NCBI RefSeq assembly: GCF_000243335.1
Contig: NZ_JH597773.1
Location: 438,489 to 502,488, forward strand
Length of the DNA stretch: 64,000 nucleotides
Direction of reading: 5' to 3'
DNA from: Leptonema illini DSM 21528
Lineage (GTDB): Bacteria > Spirochaetota > Leptospiria > Leptospirales > Leptonemataceae
Positions 4,822 through 47,303 of this stretch are shown here, in pieces. The position numbers and the translations under genes were made by a program. The notes under the pieces were generated by a model. It searched no databases, was not told where the DNA came from, and saw only the letters and a program-made list of their open reading frames with translations. The first letter of the stretch is position 1, and every line of letters starts with the position of its first letter.

Positions 4822-4940
4822 GTCAATGCAGCGGAAAAGATTCTGTCCCTACTTTCGGGAGGAACCGGGTGCAAGTCCCGGGCTGTCGCGCAACTGTAAG
4901 TTCGAAAGAACAAGCCAGATCTTCCCTGCAATTCGGTCAC
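4822..4940 (+). promoter_or_regulatory. Cobalamin riboswitch (rightward)
   Basis: The plus strand carries GGGAGGAA, then CCGGGTGCAAGTCCCGG, GCTGTCGCGCAACTGTAAG and AAGCCAGATCTTCCCTGC. This is the B12 box and the conserved GCCAGA segment of a cobalamin aptamer. It precedes the BtuB-like receptor gene. The first in-frame ATG of the receptor reading frame (4869) falls inside this aptamer and so is not the start. Confidence 0.92.
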
Positions 4941-4975
4941 GCGTCAATGACCGCTGCACGATTCGCCATAGCGAA

Positions 4976-5002
4976 GGGAGCCCGGAAGCAACCGGAGGTC
5001 CC
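4976..5002 (+). promoter_or_regulatory. Probable SD-sequestering hairpin of the rightward riboswitch
   Basis: GGGA (4976-4979) can pair with TCCC (4999-5002), and CCGG (4982-4985) with CCGG (4992-4995). This encloses and partly pairs the SD GGAGG (4994-4998) that serves the TTG start at 5004. It mirrors the arrangement on the other strand but is a weaker stem. Confidence 0.5.
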
Positions 5003-8355: not shown

Positions 8356-8407
8356 GGGCGCACCTGGCTGCTATCTAAATCCAGGAAAAGATTAACCACA
8401 GAGGTCG

Positions 8408-8731
8408 CGGAGGAGATGATCAAAGAGAGAACAATCGGAGGAGAGTAAAAAAGAAATACAACAGTAGGGACAGGACGACCATCCCATTCTCTCAACCCTT
8501 TATTCCCTCCATAGTTAAACCTCTTCTCCGCGTCCTCTGAGCCCTCAGAGGTTAACCTTTTCTGCAGCGATGCCACAAGAAAAACCAGAGTAATTTACCG
8601 CAGAGGTCGCTGAGAACACTGAGAAGACCAGAAAGAGAAAAAAGGAGATAGGTGTGTGGATGCCTTCTCCCCTTTTCCTCTTTCGCGCTTTTCGTGTATT
8701 TCGTGGAAAAAATCCGTTCACCACGGAGGCA
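8408..8731. repeat. Tandem intergenic repeat, copy 1
   Basis: The 324-base unit starting CGGAGGAGATGATCAAAGAG recurs at 8732. About the first 210 bases look identical between copies; the rest has diverged, with substitutions and small indels. It contains no gene. The ends carry ACCACAGAGG and TTTCGCGCTTTTCG motifs that recur elsewhere in the window. Confidence 0.85.
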
Positions 8732-30611: not shown

Positions 30612-33600
30612 CGGTCCTTGCCCGCGCATACTGGGAATAGATGCCGGCAAGGACAGCGATCTGCGCTTCTTTCGGTTCAGCCCCGCACATGCGGGGAATA
30701 GACATTGGTGTTCAGGTTGCCGGTGACGAGATACGGTTCATCCCCGCATGCGCGGGGAATAGGTCTCGAATCTGTCCGTTTCGGTCAACGTCGCCGGTTC
30801 ACCCCCGCGCATGCGGGGAATAGTTCTGGCTTTCGTCGAACAGAAGCACGACTCGCGGTTCATCCCCGCGCATGCGGGGAATAGGCCTTGAGGACGTTGT
30901 CGATGTCCCGTCTGCGCGGTTCATCCCCGCGCGTGCGGGGAATAGCTGAACGCATACCCGCCTTTCCCGATTGAGCGCGGTTCATCCCCGCGCATGCGGG
31001 GAATAGAAGATCGTCACACCGCCGAAGAGCGGAGTCGACGGTTCATCCCCACGCATGCGGGGAATAGACCGTTCAGGTTGAGGTGAGCGGCGACGAAGAC
31101 GGTTCATCCCCGCGCATGCGGGGAATAGTCGACGACCGTTTCAACGCCCGAAAATTCTGACGGTTCATCCCCGCATGCGCGGGGAATAGGACGACGGCCG
31201 ATATGAGATCGCGGTCGCTCACGGTTCATCCCCGCATGCACGGGGAATAGCCCGATGGATTTTCGCAACTTACTGACGTCCTCGGTTCATCCCCGCATGC
31301 GCGGGGAATAGTGCACTCCTCTGACTATCACAACGTCGATGTCCGGTTCATCCCCGCATGCGCGGGGAATAGCGTTTCGGCCACATGGCCAACCGGAATG
31401 ATCACGGTTCATCCCCGCATGCGCGGGGAATAGTTCCAGATCCCTACGGGCAGTTTCGTTCCCGTACGGTTCATCCCCGCATGCGCGGGGAATAGAAGTT
31501 CGCCGCTGCGTTCTTGATGCGCTATGGCGGTTCATCCCCGCATGCGCGGGGAATAGGTTTTCATGTTCTTTATTCTCCCTTATAAATACGGTTCATCCCC
31601 GCATGCGCGGGGAATAGCGTATAGAACCTTCCCTTGTCGTCCCGAAAAACGGTTCATCCCCGCATGCGCGGGGAATAGTTGCTATTCTTCATCCTGAATG
31701 GTCCAATGAACGGTTCATCCCCGCATGCGCGGGGAATAGTAACGGACTCCGCAACCGTTATCCGCCGATCGCGGTTCATCCCCGCATGCGCGGGGAATAG
31801 CTCAGTTTTACCCGGACGTTGCTGGCGAAAAACGGTTCATCCCCGCATGCGCGGGGAATAGGATTGCGCCGGCGCCCGCTGCTTCTGCGGTGTCGGTTCA
31901 TCCCCGCATGCGCGGGGAATAGACGAACTCATCGGCGACTACGTGCGTTTCAAGCGGTTCATCCCCGCATGCGCGGGGAATAGTCGGGGTTTCCATTTTT
32001 TCCACCAGTCGAGCGCGGTTCATCCCCGCATGCGCGGGGAATAGGAACTTCTCTTGAATAGTTTTGATCGAGGGCGCGGTTCATCCCCGCATGCGCGGGG
32101 AATAGGACCGCACGAGCATCCCGAACGACGTCGCTCGCGGTTCATCCCCGCATGCGCGGGGAATAGCTCTCCGCTTTTGGTTAACTTAATAGACTTGTCT
32201 GGTTCATCCCCGCATGCGCGGGGAATAGAATTTCTTTTTTTATTCGAGGACGAGGCCGCCCGGTTCATCCCCGCATGCGCGGGGAATAGCATAATTAAGC
32301 CTCCTGGGGTTTAGTTGTGCCCGGTTCATCCCCGCATGCGCGGGGAATAGAATCTGAATCTGTTTTATCTTCCTACCGGTGACGGTTCATCCCCGCATGC
32401 GCGGGGAATAGGTTCCAGTTTGTGGGGTTTGATGAGCTCGGGCAGGTTCATCCCCGCATGCGCGGGGAATAGATGTACGCCTTTATGAGGGGCTGAGGAT
32501 CGTACGGTTCATCCCCGCATGCGCGGGGAATAGTCGGCCGAGGTGGTCAACCAATTTAAACTCGACGGTTCATCCCCGCATGCGCGGGGAATAGACTTTC
32601 GGGGCGTCCGCGAGTATTCGAAGACTCGGTTCATCCCCGCATGCGCGGGGAATAGGCGTCTTCTGGCGATGCTCCATTCGGCCACGGCGGTTCATCCCCG
32701 CATGCGCGGGGAATAGACTCGCGGGCTCTATCGATGAGCTCGTTTAACCGGTTCATCCCCGCATGCGCGGGGAATAGATCTTCTATTTGTTTCCACTTTA
32801 AATCAAAGGCGGTTCATCCCCGCATGCGCGGGGAATAGCAAAGCGGCGGTTTGCCCCTGCTTCTGATACTCGGTTCATCCCCGCATGCGCGGGGAATAGA
32901 GCTTTCCGGATGCGCTTTTCAAGCCCGGCAGCGGTTCATCCCCGCATGCGCGGGGAATAGCGTTTCAAGGGTTACGGATAAATTGCGGAGTGCGGTTCAT
33001 CCCCGCATGCGCGGGGAATAGTCGATGACCCGAAGTCTGGGCTCATCGCAGGACGGTTCATCCCCGCATGCGCGGGGAATAGGTTGCCCCTACCCCCATT
33101 ATGATGCCTGACGACGGTTCATCCCCGCATGCGCGGGGAATAGATAGTCAGCCTCAGTCTTACTCTTCCGAGTCTCGGTTCATCCCCGCATGCGCGGGGA
33201 ATAGATCGTATATGCATTTATCGCCGGCGGATTAGGCGGTTCATCCCCGCATGCGCGGGGAATAGGTATCCCCATAGAGTCGTAAATACATACATGACGG
33301 TTCATCCCCGCATGCGCGGGGAATAGAGCTCGGCGGGATTTCCGGCGGTGTGCTGTCGCGGTTCATCCCCGCATGCGCGGGGAATAGTGGATCTGAAAGG
33401 TCTTCCAACCTCTGGAGGGCGGTTCATCCCCGCATGCGCGGGGAATAGTCGTTCTGTGATAGCCATTACGCGACCTCCTGCGGTTCATCCCCGCATGCGC
33501 GGGGAATAGGGAAGAATGAAGTCCTCGATAATGATGTTATACGGTTCATCCCCGCATGCGCGGGGAATAGATGGACGGGGCGCTGAACCAGTTCACGGAA

Positions 33601-34489
33601 GGCCGGTTCATCCCCGCATGCGCGGGGAATAGGTGCTCGTAAATCCATGCCACAGAATAGCATACGGTTCATCCCCGCATGCGCGGGGAATAGCCGAGAA
33701 TTCGGTCAATCTCAGAGGAGACAAGCGGTTCATCCCCGCATGCGCGGGGAATAGATGCCAAAGCTAAGATAGCTTCCGCCGGAATACGGTTCATCCCCGC
33801 ATGCGCGGGGAATAGGACTTCGAGTCGGACCAGTCGCGTGCGGCGCGCGGTTCATCCCCGCATGCGCGGGGAATAGAAAACGATCGTTTTCTTTTCTCCG
33901 TCCGTGAGCGGTTCATCCCCGCATGCGCGGGGAATAGTTTGGTTGCCTTTTTAGCAACTTTCTCGACCTCGGTTCATCCCCGCATGCGCGGGGAATAGGA
34001 CAGATGAGGAGATCGAGACGCTCAGGTTTGCGGTTCATCCCCGCATGCGCGGGGAATAGGCCCACTGCGCTACGCGCAGAACAACAGCGGCCGGTTCATC
34101 CCCGCATGCGCGGGGAATAGTCAGTGATTTCGGCAAGGGTCAACCGGTGAGAGGGTTCATCCCCGCATGCGCGGGGAATAGGCCATCAACAGTTGAGATG
34201 GCGAATGTATTGTCTGGTTCATCCCCGCATGCGCGGGGAATAGTACGTATACCGAAATCTCTGTATAACCAAAAGGCGGTTCATCCCCGCATGCGCGGGG
34301 AATAGTATTCATCGAGTGCAGCATAAAGAGCCGGAAACGGTTCATCCCCGCATGCGCGGGGAATAGACGCGACCTCCTGCTTACGGTGCGCTATGTAGTC
34401 GGTTCATCCCCGCATGCGCGGGGAATAGCATGACAGCGTGTTAGCTCCTACGAATATGTACGGTTCATCCCCGCATGCGCGGGGAATAG
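30612..34489 (-). CRISPR. Type I-E CRISPR array, 64 repeats and 63 spacers
   Basis: I counted 64 repeats of 29 bases. On the transcribed (minus) strand a repeat is CTATT, stem CCCCGC, 4-base loop, stem GCGGGG, then ATGAACCG, the 8-base crRNA handle. Fifty-seven spacers are 32 bases and six are 33. The leader end is at 34489, next to cas2. The first repeats at the low-coordinate end (30612, 30673) are degenerate, as expected of the trailer. The loop/stem core occurs in two versions, CCCCGCATGCGCGGGG and CCCCGCGCATGCGGGG on the plus strand, which are reverse complements of each other. Four repeats (32200, 32444, 34153, 34215) have lost the first plus-strand C. Confidence 0.98.
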
Positions 34490-34532: not shown

Positions 34533-34829
34533 TCAAGCAGGTTTTTGCTTGCTTTCTGGAACGGGATACTGGGTGAGCACCATCCCCTCAAAATCGACGA
34601 TTTCCCGGCTCGTGTCACCGTTCGAAAGAGCTGCGTAGCCTTGCTCTGTGTTCGTTTTATAGATCATCAAAGCGTCCACTTTCCACTCTTCCGTTATGCG
34701 CGCCCATAGCTTCTCGCGCACACGTCGGCCGAAGTTGCCGACGAAAACGCCAGCTTTCAGCTCAATAGTTAACCGCGACATCACGCCCCTCTGAGCCGGC
34801 GTCGCTCTCTCCAGCACGACGATTACCAT
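34533..34829 (-). CDS. cas2: CRISPR-associated endonuclease/integration factor Cas2, type I-E
   Basis: A 98-residue Cas2e: MVIVVLERATPAQRGVMSRL, then VFVGNFGRRVREKLW and ALMIYKTNTEQGY. It forms the integration complex with Cas1 that inserts new spacers. ATG 34829 has GGAGG seven bases upstream and lies inside the end of cas1 (68-base overlap). It is the last cas gene before the leader. Confidence 0.93.
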   Translation of the reverse strand: MVIVVLERATPAQRGVMSRLTIELKAGVFVGNFGRRVREKLWARITEEWKVDALMIYKTNTEQGYAALSNGDTSREIVDFEGMVLTQYPVPESKQKPA

Positions 34830-35640
34830 ACAACACCTCCATGATGTCAGGAATGATCCGCTTGAGCAGCTTTCGCTCTTTGAAAACATCACGGCATTCC
34901 ATTCTTACACGTGATTCTACCGATGCCGGCCCCTGTGCTATACGGAATGCGATCGGTATAGTGAGCTCCGTTTTATAGAGGTCAGCAAGATCATACACAA
35001 AGGAAAGCTGCTTTCCGGTGTGAATGAAACCGATGCCGGCCGAACAACCGACGGCAAGGATCGCTGCATGACAGAGACCATACAGGCAGGAGTTTGCAGC
35101 AGACAATGCCTTATTGATCGGGTCCGAGATCCCCCATTCCGATTGATCGTAGTTTCGCCCCGTCCATTCAATCTCGTACTCTTCGGCAGCGGCCTTATAG
35201 GCCGCTCTCACACGAGCCCCTTCTTTGCCCCGCAGTTGCTCTATGCTATACCGTTCATCAACGACTTCGTCAAACCGCATTTCGTAGAGCTTTCTCACAA
35301 CGCGCAGTCGTTCTTCTGGATCGGAATAGAGCTGCGCCTGACGCAGCAGATTCCTTGAAGAATACGTTCCCTGAGTGCCGGCCGAGTACATCCGCACTCC
35401 TTCATCGCCAACCCAGCACAACAAACACCGAGCATCAGTGAGGCGCTTGATGGCTGCATGTGTGATTGTCGTTCCGGGTCCGAGCATCAGGAGTGATAGT
35501 GTTTCAGCCGGTATTGGAACCTTTTTGTCTTTGTAGAAATAGGCCACCGTCTGCATATCCTGCTCGATATGACCCTTCTCGAAGTAGAGATAGCTCCAGT
35601 TCTCGTCGAACCTCGGCAATTCCTGAAGATCTCGATTCAT
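34762..35640 (-). CDS. cas1: CRISPR integrase Cas1, type I-E
   Basis: A 292-residue Cas1e, the spacer-acquisition integrase. Typical segments are LPRFDENWSYLYFEKGHIEQ, LLMLGPGTTITHAAIKRL, VRMYSAGTQGTYSSRNLLRQA, DPINKALSAANSCLYGLCHAAILAVG (with metal ligands nearby) and GFIHTGKQLSFVYDLADLYK. ATG 35640 overlaps the cas6e stop by four bases (ATGA) and has GGAGAG upstream. Confidence 0.95.
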   Translation of the reverse strand: MNRDLQELPRFDENWSYLYFEKGHIEQDMQTVAYFYKDKKVPIPAETLSLLMLGPGTTITHAAIKRLTDARCLLCWVGDEGVRMYSAGTQGTYSSRNLLRQAQLYSDPEERLRVVRKLYEMRFDEVVDERYSIEQLRGKEGARVRAAYKAAAEEYEIEWTGRNYDQSEWGISDPINKALSAANSCLYGLCHAAILAVGCSAGIGFIHTGKQLSFVYDLADLYKTELTIPIAFRIAQGPASVESRVRMECRDVFKERKLLKRIIPDIMEVLYGNRRAGESDAGSEGRDVAVNY

Positions 35641-36311
35641 ATTGCTCTCCGGAGAAGAAGAAGGCCGCAACCGAAGGCCTTTCCGTGGCCAATACCTTTC
35701 AAAAGCGAGCGGCGAAACGGCTCTTCGTCCGTAACCGTAAGCACACCGCTAAAATCCATGATACCGAAGGTCATCTTCGTATCTTTTTTCCTGGTCTGCA
35801 ATCGACGATATCGCTCGACGAGGACATGATTAACCGAGAAGCCGAGAGCCTCTGAACGACCGATCAACCATTCGCTGCCAGAATGCGTTAGCACTTCCTG
35901 TGATGTTATTTGTTCAGCGGCCGGCAGAGCCTGATTCTTAGCCAGAGCATCCAGATAAACATCATCGCGGCGCCGTTTCTTTGATTCTTTACCCTCTGGC
36001 ATCCTTGTGACGACAGGATTGGCTCGCAGTTGAAACTGATAGACAGCGCCCTTCCTGATTACAGGCGCGAATGGCTTGGTTTCAATAAGGAAGGCATCCA
36101 GATCGTTCTCGGGCTTTCTCTCAGAAAGCAAAAAGAACTGCATGGTTTTGCTATCATCGTTCTTTCTGTAGAGAAAGTCACGGTGCTGCTCCTCGTTTTC
36201 GGGGAAAAATCGCCAGATGAGCCTGTGCTCATCATAAAGTCCGCCGTAAATTTCAGTTTTCAAGAACTTCCGAATTTGCGAAGGACTGAGGGTGATTCTA
36301 CTGAAATACAT
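35637..36311 (-). CDS. cas6e: crRNA-processing endoribonuclease Cas6e (Cse3/CasE)
   Basis: A 224-residue RAMP protein that cuts pre-crRNA at the base of the repeat hairpin and remains on the crRNA 3' end. MYFSRITLSPSQI opens the first ferredoxin fold; ANPVVTR and the C-terminal glycine-rich loop KGIGHGKAFGCGLLLL are family marks. It overlaps cas5e by 14 bases. The same enzyme would have to process the mini-CRISPR at 40885-40975, whose repeat-like units keep the 6-base-pair stem. Confidence 0.93.
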   Translation of the reverse strand: MYFSRITLSPSQIRKFLKTEIYGGLYDEHRLIWRFFPENEEQHRDFLYRKNDDSKTMQFFLLSERKPENDLDAFLIETKPFAPVIRKGAVYQFQLRANPVVTRMPEGKESKKRRRDDVYLDALAKNQALPAAEQITSQEVLTHSGSEWLIGRSEALGFSVNHVLVERYRRLQTRKKDTKMTFGIMDFSGVLTVTDEEPFRRSLLKGIGHGKAFGCGLLLLRRAI

Positions 36312-37020
36312 CGGCGGCCTCCATTTCTATGAGGAACTCACTTCGCTCGCCAAACTGCCAGTTTCCTCGATGAATCAACCGATCCCGCCTCTGAAACTCC
36401 GCTCGTGTACCTGAGGCCGGCCGATCTTCCGTAAACAACTGAAAATAGACAGTATCTTCTGGTATCAGCGGCTTAAGCAGATCAGACATCGGTAATTCGA
36501 CCTTTTTCATGGCCTCCATCACCGAACCGGCGTGAACCAGTTCTGGATGGAAAGGGAGAGCAGGCGGACAACTTTTGCGACCCAGATACGGAGCGAAAAC
36601 GGGTCGTTGCAGAGATTCGCCGATCTGCTTCAGCAGCTCCTCATCATCTGAATTCAACGCAACGCGAAACAGCGCATCCTGACGGTAGTCACGAGTTGAC
36701 AGAATGGTATTCAAATCTGGTTGAAGCAGCTCTTCGCGTCTTGTGAAAAGCCGTTTTCCTTTTCTGGCTGAAGGGACCTGTACCGTATGGTAATCACGCA
36801 ACAGGTTGCCGGCGGCGAGAACAAGAACTGAGAAGCGAACGGCCTCTGCAAGCTTCGCAATACGGTCTTGCTCCTCCCGCCGTATTCCCATGGCACCGGC
36901 GACGAGGCCAAGAACGCCCGATTTCGTCGGATGAACATGCGATGGCCGGTATTCGCCGACGGCAGTATCTCCGGCAGCGAACAGAGCACCATGCATGTGA
37001 AAGACGAGATAGGATTGCAT
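36298..37020 (-). CDS. cas5e: Cascade subunit Cas5e (CasD)
   Basis: A 240-residue Cas5e that caps the crRNA 5' handle in Cascade. SYLVFHMHGALFAAGDTAVGEYRPSHVHPTKSGVLGLVAGAMGI is the conserved N-terminal half (positions 2-45). ATG 37020 with GGAG eight bases upstream is chosen over GTG 37029. The gene overlaps or abuts cas7e and overlaps cas6e. Confidence 0.93.
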   Translation of the reverse strand: MQSYLVFHMHGALFAAGDTAVGEYRPSHVHPTKSGVLGLVAGAMGIRREEQDRIAKLAEAVRFSVLVLAAGNLLRDYHTVQVPSARKGKRLFTRREELLQPDLNTILSTRDYRQDALFRVALNSDDEELLKQIGESLQRPVFAPYLGRKSCPPALPFHPELVHAGSVMEAMKKVELPMSDLLKPLIPEDTVYFQLFTEDRPASGTRAEFQRRDRLIHRGNWQFGERSEFLIEMEAADVFQ

Positions 37021-37025
37021 CGGTC

Positions 37026-38102
37026 TCACTCCGCTACACAGAAATTGAGAATCTCTTGTAACGAACCTTCGCCGGTTAGCACGTTCATCGTTGCCACAGC
37101 CTCACTGCATTTTCCGTAGACCTGCTCCATCCGATCGCGTATATCGCTCAGCGACTGAATTGAGTTCTGTAGCATGTCGTCGCCCTGCACTGCTTTTACG
37201 TAGGCAAGCGATAGAGAGCGCGGTTGTTGATCTCCAAGTTCCGCCATGATATAGTGAGCGTATGCTCGAGAGCCGAAGGAATTCTGCTTACCCGTCGGTG
37301 CAACCGTTGCCGCCGCTTGTACGAGCGCTCGGATCGCCTTCTTCGCAAGCTCTTTGTCACCGGCTCCTTTCAGGTTTTCGTTCAACAGTGTGCGATCGAT
37401 ATTGATATACGTGTAGAAGATACCCGAGGCAAACTCGGTGTCGCCCATGTGGCCGGCACCTACATCTTCCTCACCTTTATTCAGATCGTCGACAGCTGTG
37501 AAGAAGTCGTCTTCAACGACTACCTTTTGAACGGAGAAGGAATGCGCCACTTGTGCTGCCGCCTCGACATTGAATTTCGGATCGCTTGCCAGCATTCGGC
37601 CGAACAGCGCAATATCGGCACCACTATTTTCCGCTCTCAGTAGCTCCAGCTGCTCCTCTGTCGGTGCACTTTTTGCCTTAATGAGTTCGCCTGTTAAAGC
37701 AAAGATGGCCTTCTGCTCTTCCGGCGAAACAAACGCGAGTTGCTCAATGTGAAGCACTGTGGGCAGCTTCTCCTTCTCGCCCTTCAGTTTTCCAAAACAG
37801 CCGGCAATACTTCTTGCCCACGCTATGGCATCCTTCTCGGCAATACCACCCGCCTTAAGCTTTTCGTAGACGTCCTCGCCTATGCGCTTCGAACGGATTC
37901 CCAGGCCACCATCGATACTGATTCCACCAAGCCCTTCCTGGAAAACCGAAGATGTTCGCCAGGCTCGCTTCAAGCTCTGCGACGATATGCGCAATCGCGT
38001 CGTGCCGCCGACAACAGCCGTCTTGGGGCGACCGAGATCATCCCGGTTCAAATTCGACGGCGGGTAGGACGTCAACATGTGTATTTGCAAAAACCTTTTC
38101 AT
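37026..38102 (-). CDS. cas7e: Cascade backbone subunit Cas7e (Cse4/CasC)
   Basis: A 358-residue Cas7e; six copies form the crRNA-holding backbone whose thumbs flip out every sixth base. FLQIHMLTSYPPSNLNRDDLGRPKTA and RLRISSQSLKRAWRTS are strongly conserved; FASGIFYTYINID and ATVAPTGKQNSFGSRAYAHY are typical of the C-terminal half. SD and spacing are normal for this operon. Confidence 0.95.
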   Translation of the reverse strand: MKRFLQIHMLTSYPPSNLNRDDLGRPKTAVVGGTTRLRISSQSLKRAWRTSSVFQEGLGGISIDGGLGIRSKRIGEDVYEKLKAGGIAEKDAIAWARSIAGCFGKLKGEKEKLPTVLHIEQLAFVSPEEQKAIFALTGELIKAKSAPTEEQLELLRAENSGADIALFGRMLASDPKFNVEAAAQVAHSFSVQKVVVEDDFFTAVDDLNKGEEDVGAGHMGDTEFASGIFYTYINIDRTLLNENLKGAGDKELAKKAIRALVQAAATVAPTGKQNSFGSRAYAHYIMAELGDQQPRSLSLAYVKAVQGDDMLQNSIQSLSDIRDRMEQVYGKCSEAVATMNVLTGEGSLQEILNFCVAE

Positions 38103-38141
38103 ACCAGTCTCCTTGTTTTATCGTAAAATTAAATCCTTACT

Positions 38142-38687
38142 CTACTCCGAATCGCTATCTTGCGATTCGCTCGAAGCATCAAGGGTTGTTCCTGTATAGT
38201 ACAGGTAGGCCCATTCCTTGCGCGTCTGATCATTCCAGAACGTCAGCGACTTTGCAAGATCCTGAACATTCACCTTTTCATCCAGCAGGCGAACCATGCG
38301 AATCATCATCACATACAGTTCCGTATCATCCTCCGTTTTCAGGAGCCTACGAAACCGCAAATCACTGATGCGAGCCTTACTATCCTTATTCTCTGGGCCC
38401 ATTGATCGTGCCACCGGAACAGTCACTCTGTTCGGCTTCACGTGGGCCAGAACACCGGCAACAATAGGCATACGCGTGCGTTGCATCGTCATCGAAAGTC
38501 CAAAAGGCCTTATCGCTTTGAGCAAGGCGAAATAAGCTGGCGTCAGTGCTGCCTCGTCCGGTGAATGGGCACGCCGCAACTCAGCTCTGTCACCAGGTAA
38601 GTCTTGCAACGCAAGCCACCATTGCTCAATGGCAGCCCACGCTGCTTTGTAATCCACAGGCCCTTTACTCTGTGGTTGTGCTTTCAT
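38142..38687 (-). CDS. cse2: Cascade small subunit Cse2 (CasB)
   Basis: A 181-residue helical protein that forms a dimer in the belly of Cascade and steadies the R-loop. WWLALQDLPGDRAELRRAHSPDEAALTPAYFALL and FRRLLKTEDDTELYVMMIRMVRLLD are characteristic. It overlaps cse1 by four bases. Confidence 0.92.
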   Translation of the reverse strand: MKAQPQSKGPVDYKAAWAAIEQWWLALQDLPGDRAELRRAHSPDEAALTPAYFALLKAIRPFGLSMTMQRTRMPIVAGVLAHVKPNRVTVPVARSMGPENKDSKARISDLRFRRLLKTEDDTELYVMMIRMVRLLDEKVNVQDLAKSLTFWNDQTRKEWAYLYYTGTTLDASSESQDSDSE

Positions 38688-40291
38688 ACCATGCCTCCTT
38701 TAGCTGCGGCACTGATGCCCAGCTTCTCACTGAATTTATTGCTTCGATTGAAGATCAGCAGATCTCTGCGGGCGCGGACTACTCGCGGCATTTTTTCGTC
38801 TTTGCGCATACCATCCTCTTTGCCTTCATCGAGGGAGATCTGACTCGAATAGTGGTCATACAAATCCATGGATACCTTCTGAAGAGCTTTAAGCCAGTTC
38901 CGGAGTACGGGCGCCGGATCCTCAATTACCTTCATGACTTCCCTTAACGAATCATAGTAATTTGGTTCTGTGCTCTGCCAGAATTCGGTCTTGACGAAAT
39001 CAAGATCACCTCTCACAGAAGCGCCGGAATCGAAGAAGGCCAATTGAACGGCCTTTCGTGTGTTCGACGCAATGTCATTCGCGACATCGGCCATTGCTGT
39101 TGCGTACGGCGCAAATTCCTTTCGCAATGCTTCATCAGGCATCGGCCAGTAAGGCATTCTTGCCTCATACCAACAGCGTGCCTTCATGTTATCCATGTCA
39201 TAACCAAAGGCATATATTGCATAATCCTTCGTCGTACTTCCTGATCGCAACCGGTTGCCAAGAACACGGACAACGATCGCCCTTTCTTTCTCACCGACAT
39301 CTGCGATAACGAAATCGGGCCAATGACGATACGTAAAACCGCCCGGCTGCGGATGCACCGGTCGAAGGACGCCTTTGTCGTTGTAATACGGCGATAAAGG
39401 ATGCAGGATTCCTGCCGCATAGTTTGCCCCATGAGGGACAGTTGCATACTGACGATAGAACTTAGCACCGGCAGCGTTACAAATACTACAGGCTCCCTCT
39501 TCCTCGCTCGCCGGGAACAGGCGAATACGCCGCGGCGTCGCCCAGAAGGTCTGCGCCGGATGAATATGCGAACCTAGTATCTCCGTACCGGCTGTCTTAC
39601 TAAGTTTGGTGGCCGCCATCCACGGGAAGATGGCCTGCAAAGCCTTCAGAGAAGGCTTACATTGGGTCGCCGAAAGATCCTCCTTTAGGAGAACGTTCAG
39701 CCAGGCAGTATGCCACAGAGTCTGAAACTTTGGCTCTTGAGGTAAGACAATCGTTGTCAAGGGCCCGCCGCCGCGAAGAGAGGTTCGATGACCAGCGCCA
39801 CCGCTCGGCGCATTAGTCTGCAAGGTTAACAAAGCCGTCGCTGTGCAGGCTGGGCACATCTGCTGAATCTGATTGCGCTTCACGAAATGATCGGCATTGT
39901 TCTTGATCGTGTTGGCTCCCGGCGCCTCAATCAAAAGACTACCAATCGGCGTGCCTTCCTCAGCGGCTAACTCAAGATCTTGAAAAAAACGCGGGCCAGG
40001 CCCATCGAGCTCGAAGGCTGTAGCATAGACTGCCATGCTACTCTCAAGATCTGCCATCGCCGGCGGCTTCAAAAAGAGTTCTTCCCAATCCTCCGGTTCA
40101 GCCGGTGTTAGCACTGTCTGCAAAAGACCAATAAAGAACTGGATGAGCGCACCGTTGAAGTCGGGTCGCACTGCATCCAGACGCACGACAGGATCGGACT
40201 CAAGATTCTCAACCATTTGTGCAGGTCGAATGATCTCACGTCGGCCGCTCCGCCGTAGAACAGGAATCCATGCTTCTTTTAGAAGATTCAT
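38684..40291 (-). CDS. cse1: Cascade large subunit Cse1 (CasA/Cas8e)
   Basis: A 535-residue Cas8e, which recognises the PAM and recruits Cas3. MNLLKEAWIPVLRRSGRREI is the usual N-terminus; a Cys pair (MCPACTATALL, and CSICNAAG further on) fits the zinc-binding part of many family members. ATG 40291 has GGAGG six bases upstream. An intrinsic terminator (40384-40421) lies upstream, so this gene must have its own promoter in 40292-40383, where none is obvious to me. Confidence 0.95.
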   Translation of the reverse strand: MNLLKEAWIPVLRRSGRREIIRPAQMVENLESDPVVRLDAVRPDFNGALIQFFIGLLQTVLTPAEPEDWEELFLKPPAMADLESSMAVYATAFELDGPGPRFFQDLELAAEEGTPIGSLLIEAPGANTIKNNADHFVKRNQIQQMCPACTATALLTLQTNAPSGGAGHRTSLRGGGPLTTIVLPQEPKFQTLWHTAWLNVLLKEDLSATQCKPSLKALQAIFPWMAATKLSKTAGTEILGSHIHPAQTFWATPRRIRLFPASEEEGACSICNAAGAKFYRQYATVPHGANYAAGILHPLSPYYNDKGVLRPVHPQPGGFTYRHWPDFVIADVGEKERAIVVRVLGNRLRSGSTTKDYAIYAFGYDMDNMKARCWYEARMPYWPMPDEALRKEFAPYATAMADVANDIASNTRKAVQLAFFDSGASVRGDLDFVKTEFWQSTEPNYYDSLREVMKVIEDPAPVLRNWLKALQKVSMDLYDHYSSQISLDEGKEDGMRKDEKMPRVVRARRDLLIFNRSNKFSEKLGISAAAKGGMV

Positions 40292-40383: not shown

Positions 40384-40421
40384 AAAAAAAGCCGGGCGGA
40401 GTGTACCAGACTCCTCCCGGC
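40384..40421 (-). terminator. Intrinsic terminator between DUF3892 and cse1
   Basis: On the minus strand GCCGGG-A-GGAGT, a 7-base loop and ACTCC-G-CCCGGC form an 11-base-pair stem with one bulge or mismatch, followed by seven Ts. It ends the DUF3892 transcript 14 bases past the stop and separates it from the Cascade genes. Confidence 0.9.
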
Positions 40422-40434
40422 GAGTGTTGAGCTA

Positions 40435-40725
40435 TCAACAATCCGGCAAGACGTCGAGGTTATTCCTCGTCGTTTTGTCGGGGTCCGTCCGCAGATAAGG
40501 CTTACCATCTCTTAGCACCACTATTACGGCAGCCTTGACTCCGCCTACATCCGTGTAGTAGGGGGAGCACTGCGATTGCGGATGCCCATTTTGCTGAATC
40601 TCTTGGATAGCAACAGCGGCGACTACTCGCAGCCCTTGCTCTTTCATGCAGAGAGCCTTCGTTCGCTTCTCTGCATCTCTTTCAACGTGTGTCACCTTTC
40701 GTGACCAAGGGGGAATAACTGGCAT
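40435..40725 (-). CDS. DUF3892 protein, candidate cargo of a Cascade-controlled promoter
   Basis: A 96-residue protein. VTHVERDAEKRTKAL, an alternating helix/strand middle and KPYLRTDPDKTTRNNLDVLPDC match the DUF3892 pattern (YLRTDxxxxxxNNLDxLPxC). No catalytic motif or membrane segment is visible. AGGAGG lies seven bases before ATG 40725, a strong ribosome-binding site. It stands between cas3 and cse1 with its own promoter (TTGTCT/TATTCT, 40776-40804) and terminator, so it is a separate unit inside the cas locus. The upstream promoter overlaps a site matched by the mini-CRISPR spacer. It could be a Cascade-repressed toxin, a regulator or an immune accessory; nothing in the sequence decides. 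Confidence 0.8.
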   Translation of the reverse strand: MPVIPPWSRKVTHVERDAEKRTKALCMKEQGLRVVAAVAIQEIQQNGHPQSQCSPYYTDVGGVKAAVIVVLRDGKPYLRTDPDKTTRNNLDVLPDC

Positions 40726-40775: not shown

Positions 40776-40828
40776 AGAATACTACGCTATCCAACAATAG
40801 ACAAGTAAAAAGAGCGATGAAATATAAT
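40776..40828. promoter_or_regulatory. Overlapping divergent promoters in the cas3-DUF3892 gap
   Basis: Minus strand: -35 TTGTCT (40799-40804), 17 bases, -10 TATTCT (40776-40781), facing DUF3892. Plus strand: -35 TAGACA (40798-40803), 19 bases, -10 TATAAT (40823-40828), facing the mini-CRISPR. The two -35 boxes overlap almost completely, so one DNA-bound complex would control both directions. Confidence 0.65.
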
Positions 40829-40838
40829 GACTTGGCTT
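40803..40838 (+). promoter_or_regulatory. Predicted Cascade target site of the mini-CRISPR RNA
   Basis: PAM AAG (40803-40805) is followed by TAAAAAGAGCGATGAAA (40806-40822). The mini-CRISPR spacer begins TAAAACGAGCGGTGAAA. Fifteen of 17 bases match; the mismatches are at positions 6 and 12, which type I-E Cascade flips out. From position 18 the match ends. The site covers the plus-strand -10/-35 spacer and touches the minus-strand -35 box. Confidence 0.8.
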
Positions 40839-40884: not shown

Positions 40885-40975
40885 CAAAGCCTCAAATTCT
40901 TGGGGATGAACCGTAAAACGAGCGGTGAAAGGCAGACAAAGCCGCTTTCTTCCCCACAAATGTGGGGCTTCACTT
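40885..40975 (+). ncRNA. Degenerate mini-CRISPR encoding a CreR/CreA-like regulatory crRNA
   Basis: Two repeat-like 29-mers flank a 33-base spacer (40914-40946). Unit 1 (40885-40913): CAAAG, stem CCTCAA, loop ATTC, stem TTGGGG, handle ATGAACCG. Unit 2 (40947-40975): TTCTT, stem CCCCAC, loop AAAT, stem GTGGGG, CTTCACTT. Both keep the 5+6+4+6+8 architecture of the array repeat, and unit 1 keeps the complete GGGGATGAACCG end. Orientation is opposite to the main array. Unit 2 overlaps the last bases of cas3. Established cases of such elements (CreA of CreTA modules; CreR cas-repressing RNAs, reported for types I-B, I-E and V-A) guide Cascade to promoters by limited complementarity without cleavage. 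Confidence 0.85.
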
Positions 40976-43747
40976 TTGGGCCTCCAGCCGGAGGCCCAAT
41001 TTTTCTGAATAGACAAATCTTTCCTGCTTGGTCGTTTCGCCCAGGCTCCTGTAGAGACCTTGCTCCAGCTGTTCAAAAGGCAAAAGGGAGCCACCACGGC
41101 CCTGATCAGGAAGGCGCCGCTCGGCTTCTTCGATTATCCTTCTCAATTCGGAGGGCAAAACGACCTCGACAGGGCGAAACTTTACCTCGCTCAATGCAAA
41201 CGACTGGTCGTTACTGGCAACGAGTGGCCGCACAGTAGACCCTTCAAGCAAGCAGAGCCTGTAGGTCCTTGTTTCATCGGTAAGGCGCGTCGGTGCAGAA
41301 TGATCGGGCCAGGGATTGAGATCGCTGCTTTGCAGGAAGCCCTTCTCTAAATCGATGAGATTCGTCTGTGCTGTGAAACCGGCTTTATCGTCTGCCGAGT
41401 GAGCCCGGTGACTCTGTTCTACTAAGGCATGCGGAGTCTCTGTCTCGCCGTACACCGCCTCAATCAAATATCGCAACCTTGCAGGGATCTCGATCTGACG
41501 TTCACGTTTCAAGACGCTGGCCGTGCGCCAGAGAATACCATGATTCTGATAAACCTTTGCACCACCGGGAAAGCATCCCATGTACCAGTCTGCTTCGATC
41601 GTAGTGTCAGGATCCGGTCCAAAGATGATTACGGTTCCGACACCTCGTCCATCTACCGTGTCGATACGATTCCCGGATTGGTCGCGAGCATGACGTCGCA
41701 AACGACCGACTCGCTGAATGACGAGATCAATCGGACAGAGGTCGGTGATCATTTCGTCGAAATCAAGATCAAGCGATTGTTCAACTACCTGCGTCGCAAG
41801 GAGAATCCTCCCTGCCCGCTCAGCGCTCGTCGATTCCTTACCAAAAGTACGAAGCACTCGTTCTTCAATGTCGCTGCGATGCCCCATAGCAAAACGAGAA
41901 TGAAAGACGAAAAGTTTATCGGCATCTATCTCTACCGATAATTGATCATAGGCCCGCTGCACATCGGCAACCGTGTTGCGAATCCAGACCGCGCAGCGAC
42001 CCTCTCGCGAAATTTCGGCCAACCGCTCTACGACGGGTTCAATGGCACCATCCTCAGAGGTGAGGAACTCCACACCGACCGAACGACAGTGTCTCGCAGA
42101 CGGCTCAATGGGGATGAAGTCAACCTTGCCGGATTCCACAATGGTAATGAGAGGATAGTGCATCTCTTCTCTGAGGTTTACTTCAGGTTCATCGCCCTGG
42201 CCGTTACAGCCGGACAGGTAGGCTGCGCCAAGGCTCTCTTTCATGGATACGGGCAGCGTAGCCGAAAGCAGAACAACACTACGGCCCTGCTGCGCTTGAA
42301 ACTTGATGAGTGATTCGAGCAACTCCTGCATGTACGCGTCATAAGCATGCACCTCATCAACGATGAGTATCTTACGAGAAAGCCCGAACATACGCAGAGT
42401 ATTATGCTTGGAGTATATCACCGAAAGCAAGGCCTGATCAATGCTACCGACACCGACCTGAGCAAGGAAGGCCTTTCGGGCGCGATCAGCGATCCATGTA
42501 TTGCAGGCGGCCTTGGTAGTTTGCTGTTCCTCTGCGTCTGTTGCGTTAAACTCAACGTCCGTAACACGCGAATGCTCTGGCAGGAGAGAATCCTGAAAAG
42601 CTGCGTTCAATTCAGGGCGACCATGGGCAAGAATCAGCGATGCATTCGAGCCGGCAGCGAAGTAGTTGCTATAAATGGCAGCAAGGCGCGAGTACATGCC
42701 GTTTGAAGTTGCCATAGTCGGCAAGGCGAAATAAAACCCTTCGACATTCTCCTTATCCATCAGGCTTGCCGTCAATAGGAGGGCTGCTTCTGTCTTACCT
42801 GCGCCTGCGATGTCTTCAATGATGTACAGGGCAGGCCCCCGCCCCTCAGTCGCCTGAAGCATGGCCGTCTGTAGCGGTGTAGGCGTATAGGGTTTGAATG
42901 TGGGAAACAACTCTTCCCATGGGTTGGTTAGTTTTCGCCGAGGTACGGCAACCAACCCCTGCCGAAGTAAGGCTGCATCTGCAAGCTCAAGCGACTCTGA
43001 AAAAGCCTTCTTAAGATCGAACTCACTGGCATGCTCTTTAGTGAACGGCAGGTTCAGGGGGAAATTATCTGACGAAGAGCCGGTCCAGTCAGCAAGGATG
43101 ATCAAACCAGAGAGTGGAAACGAAAATCTCGCTAATTCCGGTCTCACTGACCGCGTTTTCGCCCATTGCTGCATAGCGGTCAGGCTTCCAGGCAGCAAGT
43201 GCAAGAGATCGTCAATATATGCCTTAGCAGCAAGCTGAACTTTATCGTCGTACAGCTGCCTCAGCGGCGGCGGGGTGGATGGATCCAAAGCTTCCACCGG
43301 TTTGCCGTGATGCCCAAAACTTGCCGTTAACAGAGGGCGAATCGAACGATTCAAAACACCCATATCATCGGATGATAAGTCGCTAAGTTGGTCCTTAATC
43401 TGCCCCCATATCGATGCATCCCAGAATCCAAAACCTGAAGAAGGGTGAGAGGCCCTGCTTGCATAACTAATGCCTGTCCGCCCCGTCAAAAGTGTGGCCA
43501 ATTGAGGAATCTTGAATTGAAAATCGAGGGCAAACTTGCCGAGATCATGAATGGCGGTCAAAAAAGTGACGAGATCAGCAAGAACATCGCGCTCAACCTG
43601 TAGCCTACGTGCCCAATCGTGTACGAAGGCCGGATGTCGTAGCAGCCATTGTCGGGCCACGGCCGCAACGTCCAGCATGTGGAGAACGAGGGGGCGCCAG
43701 CGGCCAGATTCTCCGTCGGCCTTGCCCCAGAATCGAAGATAGTGCAT
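40970..43747 (-). CDS. cas3: CRISPR-associated helicase/nuclease Cas3, type I-E
   Basis: About 925 residues. N-terminal HD nuclease (HMLDVAAVA, AIHDLGKFAL, FGHHGKP, LADWTGS), then SF2 helicase (Walker A EDIAGAGKTEAALL, Walker B DEVHAYD, motif III LLSATLP, motifs V/VI LLATQVVEQSLDLDFDEM and QRVGRLRRH), then a C-terminal domain. It degrades DNA after Cascade forms a full R-loop. ATG 43747 is preferred; TTG 43753 is in frame. A promoter just upstream would give an almost leaderless mRNA. The stop lies within repeat-like unit 2 of the mini-CRISPR. Confidence 0.95.
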   Translation of the reverse strand: MHYLRFWGKADGESGRWRPLVLHMLDVAAVARQWLLRHPAFVHDWARRLQVERDVLADLVTFLTAIHDLGKFALDFQFKIPQLATLLTGRTGISYASRASHPSSGFGFWDASIWGQIKDQLSDLSSDDMGVLNRSIRPLLTASFGHHGKPVEALDPSTPPPLRQLYDDKVQLAAKAYIDDLLHLLPGSLTAMQQWAKTRSVRPELARFSFPLSGLIILADWTGSSSDNFPLNLPFTKEHASEFDLKKAFSESLELADAALLRQGLVAVPRRKLTNPWEELFPTFKPYTPTPLQTAMLQATEGRGPALYIIEDIAGAGKTEAALLLTASLMDKENVEGFYFALPTMATSNGMYSRLAAIYSNYFAAGSNASLILAHGRPELNAAFQDSLLPEHSRVTDVEFNATDAEEQQTTKAACNTWIADRARKAFLAQVGVGSIDQALLSVIYSKHNTLRMFGLSRKILIVDEVHAYDAYMQELLESLIKFQAQQGRSVVLLSATLPVSMKESLGAAYLSGCNGQGDEPEVNLREEMHYPLITIVESGKVDFIPIEPSARHCRSVGVEFLTSEDGAIEPVVERLAEISREGRCAVWIRNTVADVQRAYDQLSVEIDADKLFVFHSRFAMGHRSDIEERVLRTFGKESTSAERAGRILLATQVVEQSLDLDFDEMITDLCPIDLVIQRVGRLRRHARDQSGNRIDTVDGRGVGTVIIFGPDPDTTIEADWYMGCFPGGAKVYQNHGILWRTASVLKRERQIEIPARLRYLIEAVYGETETPHALVEQSHRAHSADDKAGFTAQTNLIDLEKGFLQSSDLNPWPDHSAPTRLTDETRTYRLCLLEGSTVRPLVASNDQSFALSEVKFRPVEVVLPSELRRIIEEAERRLPDQGRGGSLLPFEQLEQGLYRSLGETTKQERFVYSEKLGLRLEAQK

Positions 43748-43757
43748 TCGCAATCGG

Positions 43758-47137: not shown

Positions 47138-47303
47138 TCGGGGGATGCATTAAGCCTTCCTTGACCTGCCTCAGATCTATCCTTTCCCGCCTCATCCAAA
47201 TGATCGCCTCGACCGTAGAGGCGCTGTCGCTGTTCCGATATACTCCCGGTCGAGGACGTTGCAGCGCTCCTTTTAAACAGGAAGCCGACAAGTAACGCCG
47301 GTA

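Follow-up and report, generated by a model that had tools for sequence, protein, structure and literature searches.

A candidate CreR-type guide with a promoter-proximal target in the type I-E CRISPR-Cas locus of Leptonema illini

Introduction

Guide elements of the CreR type have been published for CRISPR-Cas types I-B, I-E, and V-A, where they act via partial complementarity to a promoter (PMC13131331; PMC12737573). For CreA, a type I-B guide, mutations have established that base pairs 1-5 and 7-11 are essential and that positions 6 and 12 are free (PMC8501985). For a domain that enters the present case, DUF3892, sequence and fold analysis has led to the proposal that it senses viral RNA or modified ribosomes in antiviral systems when it is fused to an effector, which would act by suicide (PMC12419801).

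Here, we describe an element at 40885-40975 of a 64,000-nt stretch of Leptonema illini DSM 21528 (the window; contig NZ_JH597773.1, positions 438,489 to 502,488). CreR is already known in type I-E; the Leptonema case is unusual for its DUF3892 passenger. We consider it likely that a CreR-type guide lets Cascade repress both the promoter of the DUF3892-cas8e operon and the guide's own promoter.

Results

The minus strand of the window encodes a complete type I-E system, in the order cas3, a 678-nt gap, cas8e, cse2, cas7, cas5, cas6e, cas1, cas2, and the array (Table 1). Elsewhere in the window, a Cobalamin riboswitch (Rfam RF00174) was found at 4861-4989 on the plus strand.

Table 1. Features of the candidate CreR-type element and its type I-E locus, in window coordinates
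Feature	Coordinates	Strand	Details
Main CRISPR array	30673..34489	-	63 repeat units, 29-nt repeat
cse2, cas7e, cas5e, cas6e, cas1e, cas2e	34533..38687	-
cas8e (cse1)	38684..40291	-
Terminator hairpin between DUF3892 and cas8e	40384..40421	-	-21.3 kcal/mol, then T7
DUF3892 protein gene	40435..40725	-	96 aa; PF13031, E 4.5e-9; AGGAGG ribosome-binding site
Predicted promoter facing DUF3892/cas8e	40776..40804	-	TTGTCT (40804-40799), 17 nt, TATTCT (40781-40776)
Predicted promoter of the candidate CreR	40798..40828	+	TAGACA, 19 nt, TATAAT (-10 at 40823-40828); weak, 19-nt spacing
PAM AAG of target	40803..40805	+
Target protospacer footprint	40806..40837	+	paired part 40806-40822
Candidate CreR unit 1, degenerate repeat	40885..40913	+	8-nt 5' handle ATGAACCG at 40906-40913
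Pseudo-spacer, 33 nt	40914..40946	+	target match over nt 1-17 except 6 and 12
Candidate CreR unit 2	40947..40975	+	perfect 6-bp stem, handle lost; would supply 3' hairpin
Predicted intrinsic terminator of the CreR transcript	40976..41004	+	hairpin 40976-40999, 10-bp stem, then T5
cas3	40970..43753	-

A first-pass annotation of this DNA had described the element as a mini-CRISPR of two 29-nt units, 33 nt apart, that keep the 5-6-4-6-8 layout of the array repeat, and direct reading together with folding bears this out. Unit 1 reads CAAAG-CCTCAA-ATTC-TTGGGG-ATGAACCG and unit 2 reads TTCTT-CCCCAC-AAAT-GTGGGG-CTTCACTT, each matching the array repeat in crRNA orientation (CTATTCCCCGCGCATGCGGGGATGAACCG) at 17-18 of 29 positions. 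The stems have changed with compensation, as had been claimed: the hairpin folds in both units, at -6.1 kcal/mol with one G-U pair in unit 1 and at -10.6 kcal/mol in unit 2. Likewise correct were the full 8-base handle of unit 1, which is identical to that of the array, and the orientation of the element opposite to the main array. The loss of the handle in unit 2 is expected for a unit that supplies only the 3' hairpin. Unit 1 also holds an exact copy of the 12 bases GGGGATGAACCG (40902-40913, plus strand). With up to one mismatch allowed, this string occurs 64 times in the window, 63 times in the array and once at 40902-40913, against a chance expectation of 0.33, and is otherwise absent from the window. 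The 91-nt element is present as a single copy in the 4.52-Mb genome, and a search of Rfam returned no match to it.

Based on this architecture, the mature RNA would be ∼62 nt long and span 40906-40967 (8 + 33 + 21 nt); the start at 40906 is as first annotated, and the length of ∼61 nt given with it is corrected here. The predicted terminator of the transcript sits within the 3' end of cas3. In the minimum-energy fold of the full RNA, units 1 and 2 are partly paired with each other, which could hinder Cas6e.

The decisive feature, absent from the first-pass annotation, is a promoter-proximal target for the pseudo-spacer. An AAG PAM followed by TAAAAAGAGCGATGAAA (40806-40822) lies 108 bp upstream of the spacer on the same strand. 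Spacer nucleotides 1-17 match this site at 15 of 17 positions, the two exceptions being positions 6 and 12. These are bases that Cascade, which flips out one guide base in every six, leaves unpaired. A search of the 4.52-Mb genome with the 15-position pattern TAAAANGAGCGNTGAAA, allowing up to one mismatch, picked up a single site besides the spacer and the target. This third site (window 47244-47275, minus strand) matches at 14 of 15 positions and lies 6 kb away between convergent genes; it is probably due to chance because it has the wrong PAM (GTT) and no promoter. An ordinary array or stray repeat was considered as a source of the element and rejected, given the limited identity of the units to the array repeat and a spacer that matches the locus's own promoter.

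The PAM is overlapped by the -35 box of the predicted minus-strand promoter (position weight matrix score 9.6; null mean 6.9, sd 2.3). The likely -10 box of the guide, TATAAT at 40823-40828, also falls inside the Cascade footprint. A consensus scan of the window with stricter rules called neither promoter, and both predictions are of moderate strength. A PAM-flanked target that is complementary to the seed, lies at a predicted promoter within the cas3-cas8e gap, and is mismatched at positions 6 and 12 alone is the signature of CreR/CreA, and the initial guess of a CreR/CreA-type element was right in kind.

Since the target overlaps the plus-strand TATAAT and precedes the guide gene, leaving a leader of ∼50 nt, we considered whether the leader could be a toxic RNA (CreT) that the guide represses, as in CreTA. 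We regard this as very doubtful. Neither in the window nor in the other loci examined does the leader contain an ATG- or GTG-initiated ORF equipped with a ribosome-binding site, and at several loci it is shorter than 20 nt, too short for creT. CreTA was rejected on the grounds of the missing creT ORF, an argument that applies to protein-coding toxins. With no toxin ORF separating target from guide, a CreR-type guide is a better fit than CreTA.

To place the element among relatives, 80 cas8e loci from GTDB genomes, many of them metagenome assemblies, were scanned for a handle unit with a nearby PAM-flanked seed match. Conservation of the unit architecture in relatives, on which the first-pass annotation had staked the idea, was found: the element is present upstream of cas8e in 23 of the 80 other I-E loci, or 24 of 81 with the window. 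Reversed and complemented sequences gave 0 hits, and a Markov null gave 0.15 per set. The passing loci belong to Spirochaetia, one Desulfobacteraceae genome, and many Proteobacteria, and the design is also present in one further spirochaete (G027) and in E. coli K-12. Three I-E loci of the window's own class (L099, L100, and L101) gave no match. The loci L073 and L080 are related and not independent, and one of them was omitted from the position counts, which cover 23 loci.

The seeds are unrelated among most of these loci and each fits its own target; guide and target covary. Across the 23 loci, guide and target match at ∼100% for positions 1-5 and 7-11, at 96-74% for positions 13-16, fading to 17, and near chance from 18 onward. 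Position 6 matches in 6 of 23 and position 12 in 7 of 23, which is the chance level. As the first scan had been selective for the seed and had left positions 6 and 12 out of account, the loci were rescanned, this time requiring the exact handle and AAG and giving equal weight to all 17 positions. This returned 12 loci, with a mismatch at position 6 in 10 and at position 12 in seven, the other positions being nearly always paired. The rescan split cleanly into loci with at least 13 matches and loci with at most 11. Relaxing the handle brings in L017, L030, and L036. All four mismatches at seed position 9 (L017, L049, L055, and L091) place a spacer C against a target T.

The geometry recurs as well. 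The guide gene is directed away from cas8e in 23 of 24 loci, with its target 42-114 nt back from the handle, toward cas8e. In nearly all loci, the stem of unit 2 is complete and its handle lost; unit 1 has kept the handle and sometimes lost the stem. This is expected if the 5' handle comes from unit 1 and the 3' hairpin from unit 2. Pseudo-spacer lengths form two groups, 20-22 and 32-34 nt, the window (33 nt) belonging to the latter; the difference corresponds to roughly two Cascade segments of 6 nt. With the promoter matrix, a sigma-70-like promoter next to the footprint and directed at cas8e scores at least 8 in 21 of 23 loci, as compared to 29% of shuffles. In most loci with this orientation of the target, its -35 box falls into one of two positions relative to the edge of the footprint: offset +2/+3, overlapping or touching the PAM, in the window, L034, L041, L046, L058, L076, and L090, and at +12 to +14, approximately one helical turn further, in L011, L026, L049, L055, L056, L060, and L067. 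The cas3-cas8e gap is at least 259 nt in every element-bearing locus with a detectable cas3 end, whereas cas3 and cas8e abut in most loci without the element (Fisher 1e-12 for the gap contrast). Taken together, the sequences show the architecture, the unique target, the PAM, and the flip-out mismatch pattern of the element, and a geometry that is conserved in many unrelated loci.

This conservation bears on two simpler explanations. A decayed CRISPR unit without present function would account for units that differ strongly from the array repeat. Decay would not be expected to spare exactly the handle, the unit 2 stem, the PAM, and the seed apart from its flipped-out positions, which are kept in unrelated lineages with different seeds, and we consider a relic highly improbable. 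Chance hairpins combined with a chance repeat, for which only the short unit length speaks, would be an extraordinary coincidence: an exact target with AAG is expected 2e-8 times in 1.4 kb of strand sequence at uniform composition, the relatives contradict it, and the scan controls are close to zero.

We next turn to the gene that the target faces. The first gene behind the targeted promoter in the window encodes the DUF3892 protein. DUF3892 is the sole domain above cut-off, and the protein is without an effector domain; its structure model (mean pLDDT 52) is too poor for a fold search. Homologues are found in three of 393 Spirochaetota genomes (the window's own, G027, and G206), and by identity and score the G206 protein is similar to that of L011. 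In all three element-bearing spirochaete loci that were read (window, L011, and G027), DUF3892 is the gene next behind the target. In G027, the guide, a 15/15 target, and DUF3892 do not separate cas3 from cas8e but are located ahead of KTSC-cas3-cas8e; the guide thus keeps its DUF3892 neighbor while their place in the locus differs. The KTSC-domain gene of this G027 operon lies between DUF3892 and cas3 (L098 5560-5868, minus strand; PF13619, E 6.5e-18).

No sigma-70-like promoter was found downstream of the strong terminator at 40384-40421 and before cas8e. The terminator may be leaky; if it is not, the promoter would mostly serve DUF3892. The targeted promoter may therefore serve DUF3892 more than cas8e.

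The main rival to the CreR reading is a CrePA-like role, in which the guide would chiefly repress DUF3892 as a Cascade-guarded effector (a toxin or a dormancy/sensor protein). DUF3892 would then be released on Cascade loss or inhibition, and cas8e would mainly be transcribed from elsewhere or by read-through. The position of DUF3892 directly behind the target in the window and G027, and likewise in L011, is consistent with this, as is G027, whose module lies ahead of KTSC-cas3-cas8e, so that DUF3892 follows the guide rather than cas8e. The same holds for the terminator after DUF3892 in the window, a 15-bp hairpin at that place in L011, and the proposal that DUF3892, joined to a suicide effector, senses RNA or ribosomes (PMC12419801). 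However, in many other element-bearing loci (L060, L067, L072, L045, and L090) the first small ORF overlaps or abuts cas8e, making the promoter the cas promoter there. Furthermore, G027 is by eye without a terminator between DUF3892, KTSC, and cas3, its targeted promoter running on into cas genes, and the window protein lacks an effector domain, where published CreP typically carries a KilA-N domain (PMC12737573). On balance, we regard the CrePA-like role as unlikely. As a somewhat broader and tentative suggestion, which we also think unlikely, the CreR-type guide and DUF3892 of Spirochaetota could travel together as a mobile module of two parts, with Cascade guarding the expression of DUF3892, an RNA- or ribosome-sensing protein. 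If so, loss or inhibition of Cascade would free a second line of defense built on a new class of protein.

Across loci, a small ORF often comes first behind the target. One family of hydrophobic peptides of 36-40 aa occupies this place in L041, L056, L058, L060, L073, L076, L080, and L090, and a second, of the same size, in L067, L072, L087, and L036; some of these ORFs abut or overlap cas8e. In methanotroph I-E loci, a HicA toxin gene lies between a short peptide gene and cas8e, together with HicB antitoxin in L056, L073, and L080; HicA is also found in L068 and L069. The first ORF in L046 and L079 belongs to a 53-54 aa family without a significant Pfam match.

The cas3-casA intergenic region of E. 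coli K-12 (NC_000913.3; L091 8354-8600) contains a complete CreR-like element. On the plus strand, ACCTTCCCTACTTAAGTAGGGATAAACCG at 8482-8510 carries the exact E. coli handle ATAAACCG; after it come a spacer of ∼31 nt, the hairpin of unit 2, and one more hairpin. The target, which begins at 8357 and reads AAG-TTATTCGTTTTATTATT, is mismatched at positions 6, 9, and 17. The promoter-like sequence TTGCAG-17-TATTGT at offset +2 has a matrix score of 7.8 and is not the best of the region. At ≥95% identity, the element occurs in 1,125 of 5,426 E. coli genomes. In an alignment of three variant alleles, the first 17 spacer bases differ only at position 12, the flipped-out base, and a change in the target restores the match at position 17. 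The K-12 element shares with the window its orientation, an exact handle of the resident repeat (here that of E. coli), unit 2 hairpin, following hairpin, AAG target, and -35 offset of +2. It differs in its 146 nt between target and handle, in the extra mismatch at position 9, and in that no small ORF was noted. We found no discussion of the K-12 element in the literature searched, a search that did not extend to Liu et al. 2023.

Discussion

Our working model is as follows. A short CreR transcript would start near 40835, and Cas6e is predicted to cut both degenerate repeats. The resulting crRNA-like RNA of ∼62 nt, with an 8-nt handle, a 33-nt pseudo-spacer, and a 21-nt hairpin, would load into Cascade, and its seed would pair with the AAG-flanked site at 40806-40822. 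The bound Cascade would cover the -35 region of the promoter of DUF3892-cas8e-cse2-cas7-cas5-cas6e-cas1-cas2 and repress it, and at the same target would also cover and repress the guide's own promoter. Cas3 would not be expected to cut there, since 17 paired nucleotides should be too few for a full R-loop. The cas3 gene is upstream of the target and would escape control. Repression would lift if Cascade were diverted by array crRNAs or by an anti-CRISPR.

If the model holds, Cascade-guided autorepression in type I-E is recognizable from DNA alone, by the handle, the unit 2 hairpin, the AAG site, and the mismatches at 6 and 12, and these four features make a simple genome-wide detector. The target is tied to the -35 box of the operon promoter, and the presence of a CreR-type element would explain why some I-E loci have cas3-cas8e gaps of more than 250 nt. 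Attention is also drawn to a class of small genes that the guarded promoter would express, among them DUF3892 and short membrane peptides. That E. coli K-12 has this layout would open the idea to tests in the best-studied strain.

Among the known systems, CreA of CreTA (type I-B; PMC8501985) has two divergent repeats that yield a 5' handle and a 3' hairpin, a seed that pairs at 1-5 and 7-11 with 6 and 12 free, and a promoter target just upstream of the guide gene, all as here; unlike CreTA, the window has neither a creT gene nor any other ORF in the stretch from target to guide. In CrePA (Shu et al. 2025, Nat Chem Biol 21:337, as described in PMC12737573), the guide lies beside the promoter of a small protein gene, as it does here, the protein in the window being DUF3892 and not KilA-N. 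The closest likeness is to CreR (Liu et al. 2023, Cell Host Microbe 31:1481, as described in PMC13131331, PMC12948488, and PMC12737573): a crRNA-like mini-CRISPR at the cas locus, with degenerate flanking repeats and limited complementarity to a promoter of the locus, which is a predicted promoter in our case. The Leptonema locus departs from that description in having DUF3892 as the first gene behind the target and a terminator before cas8e.
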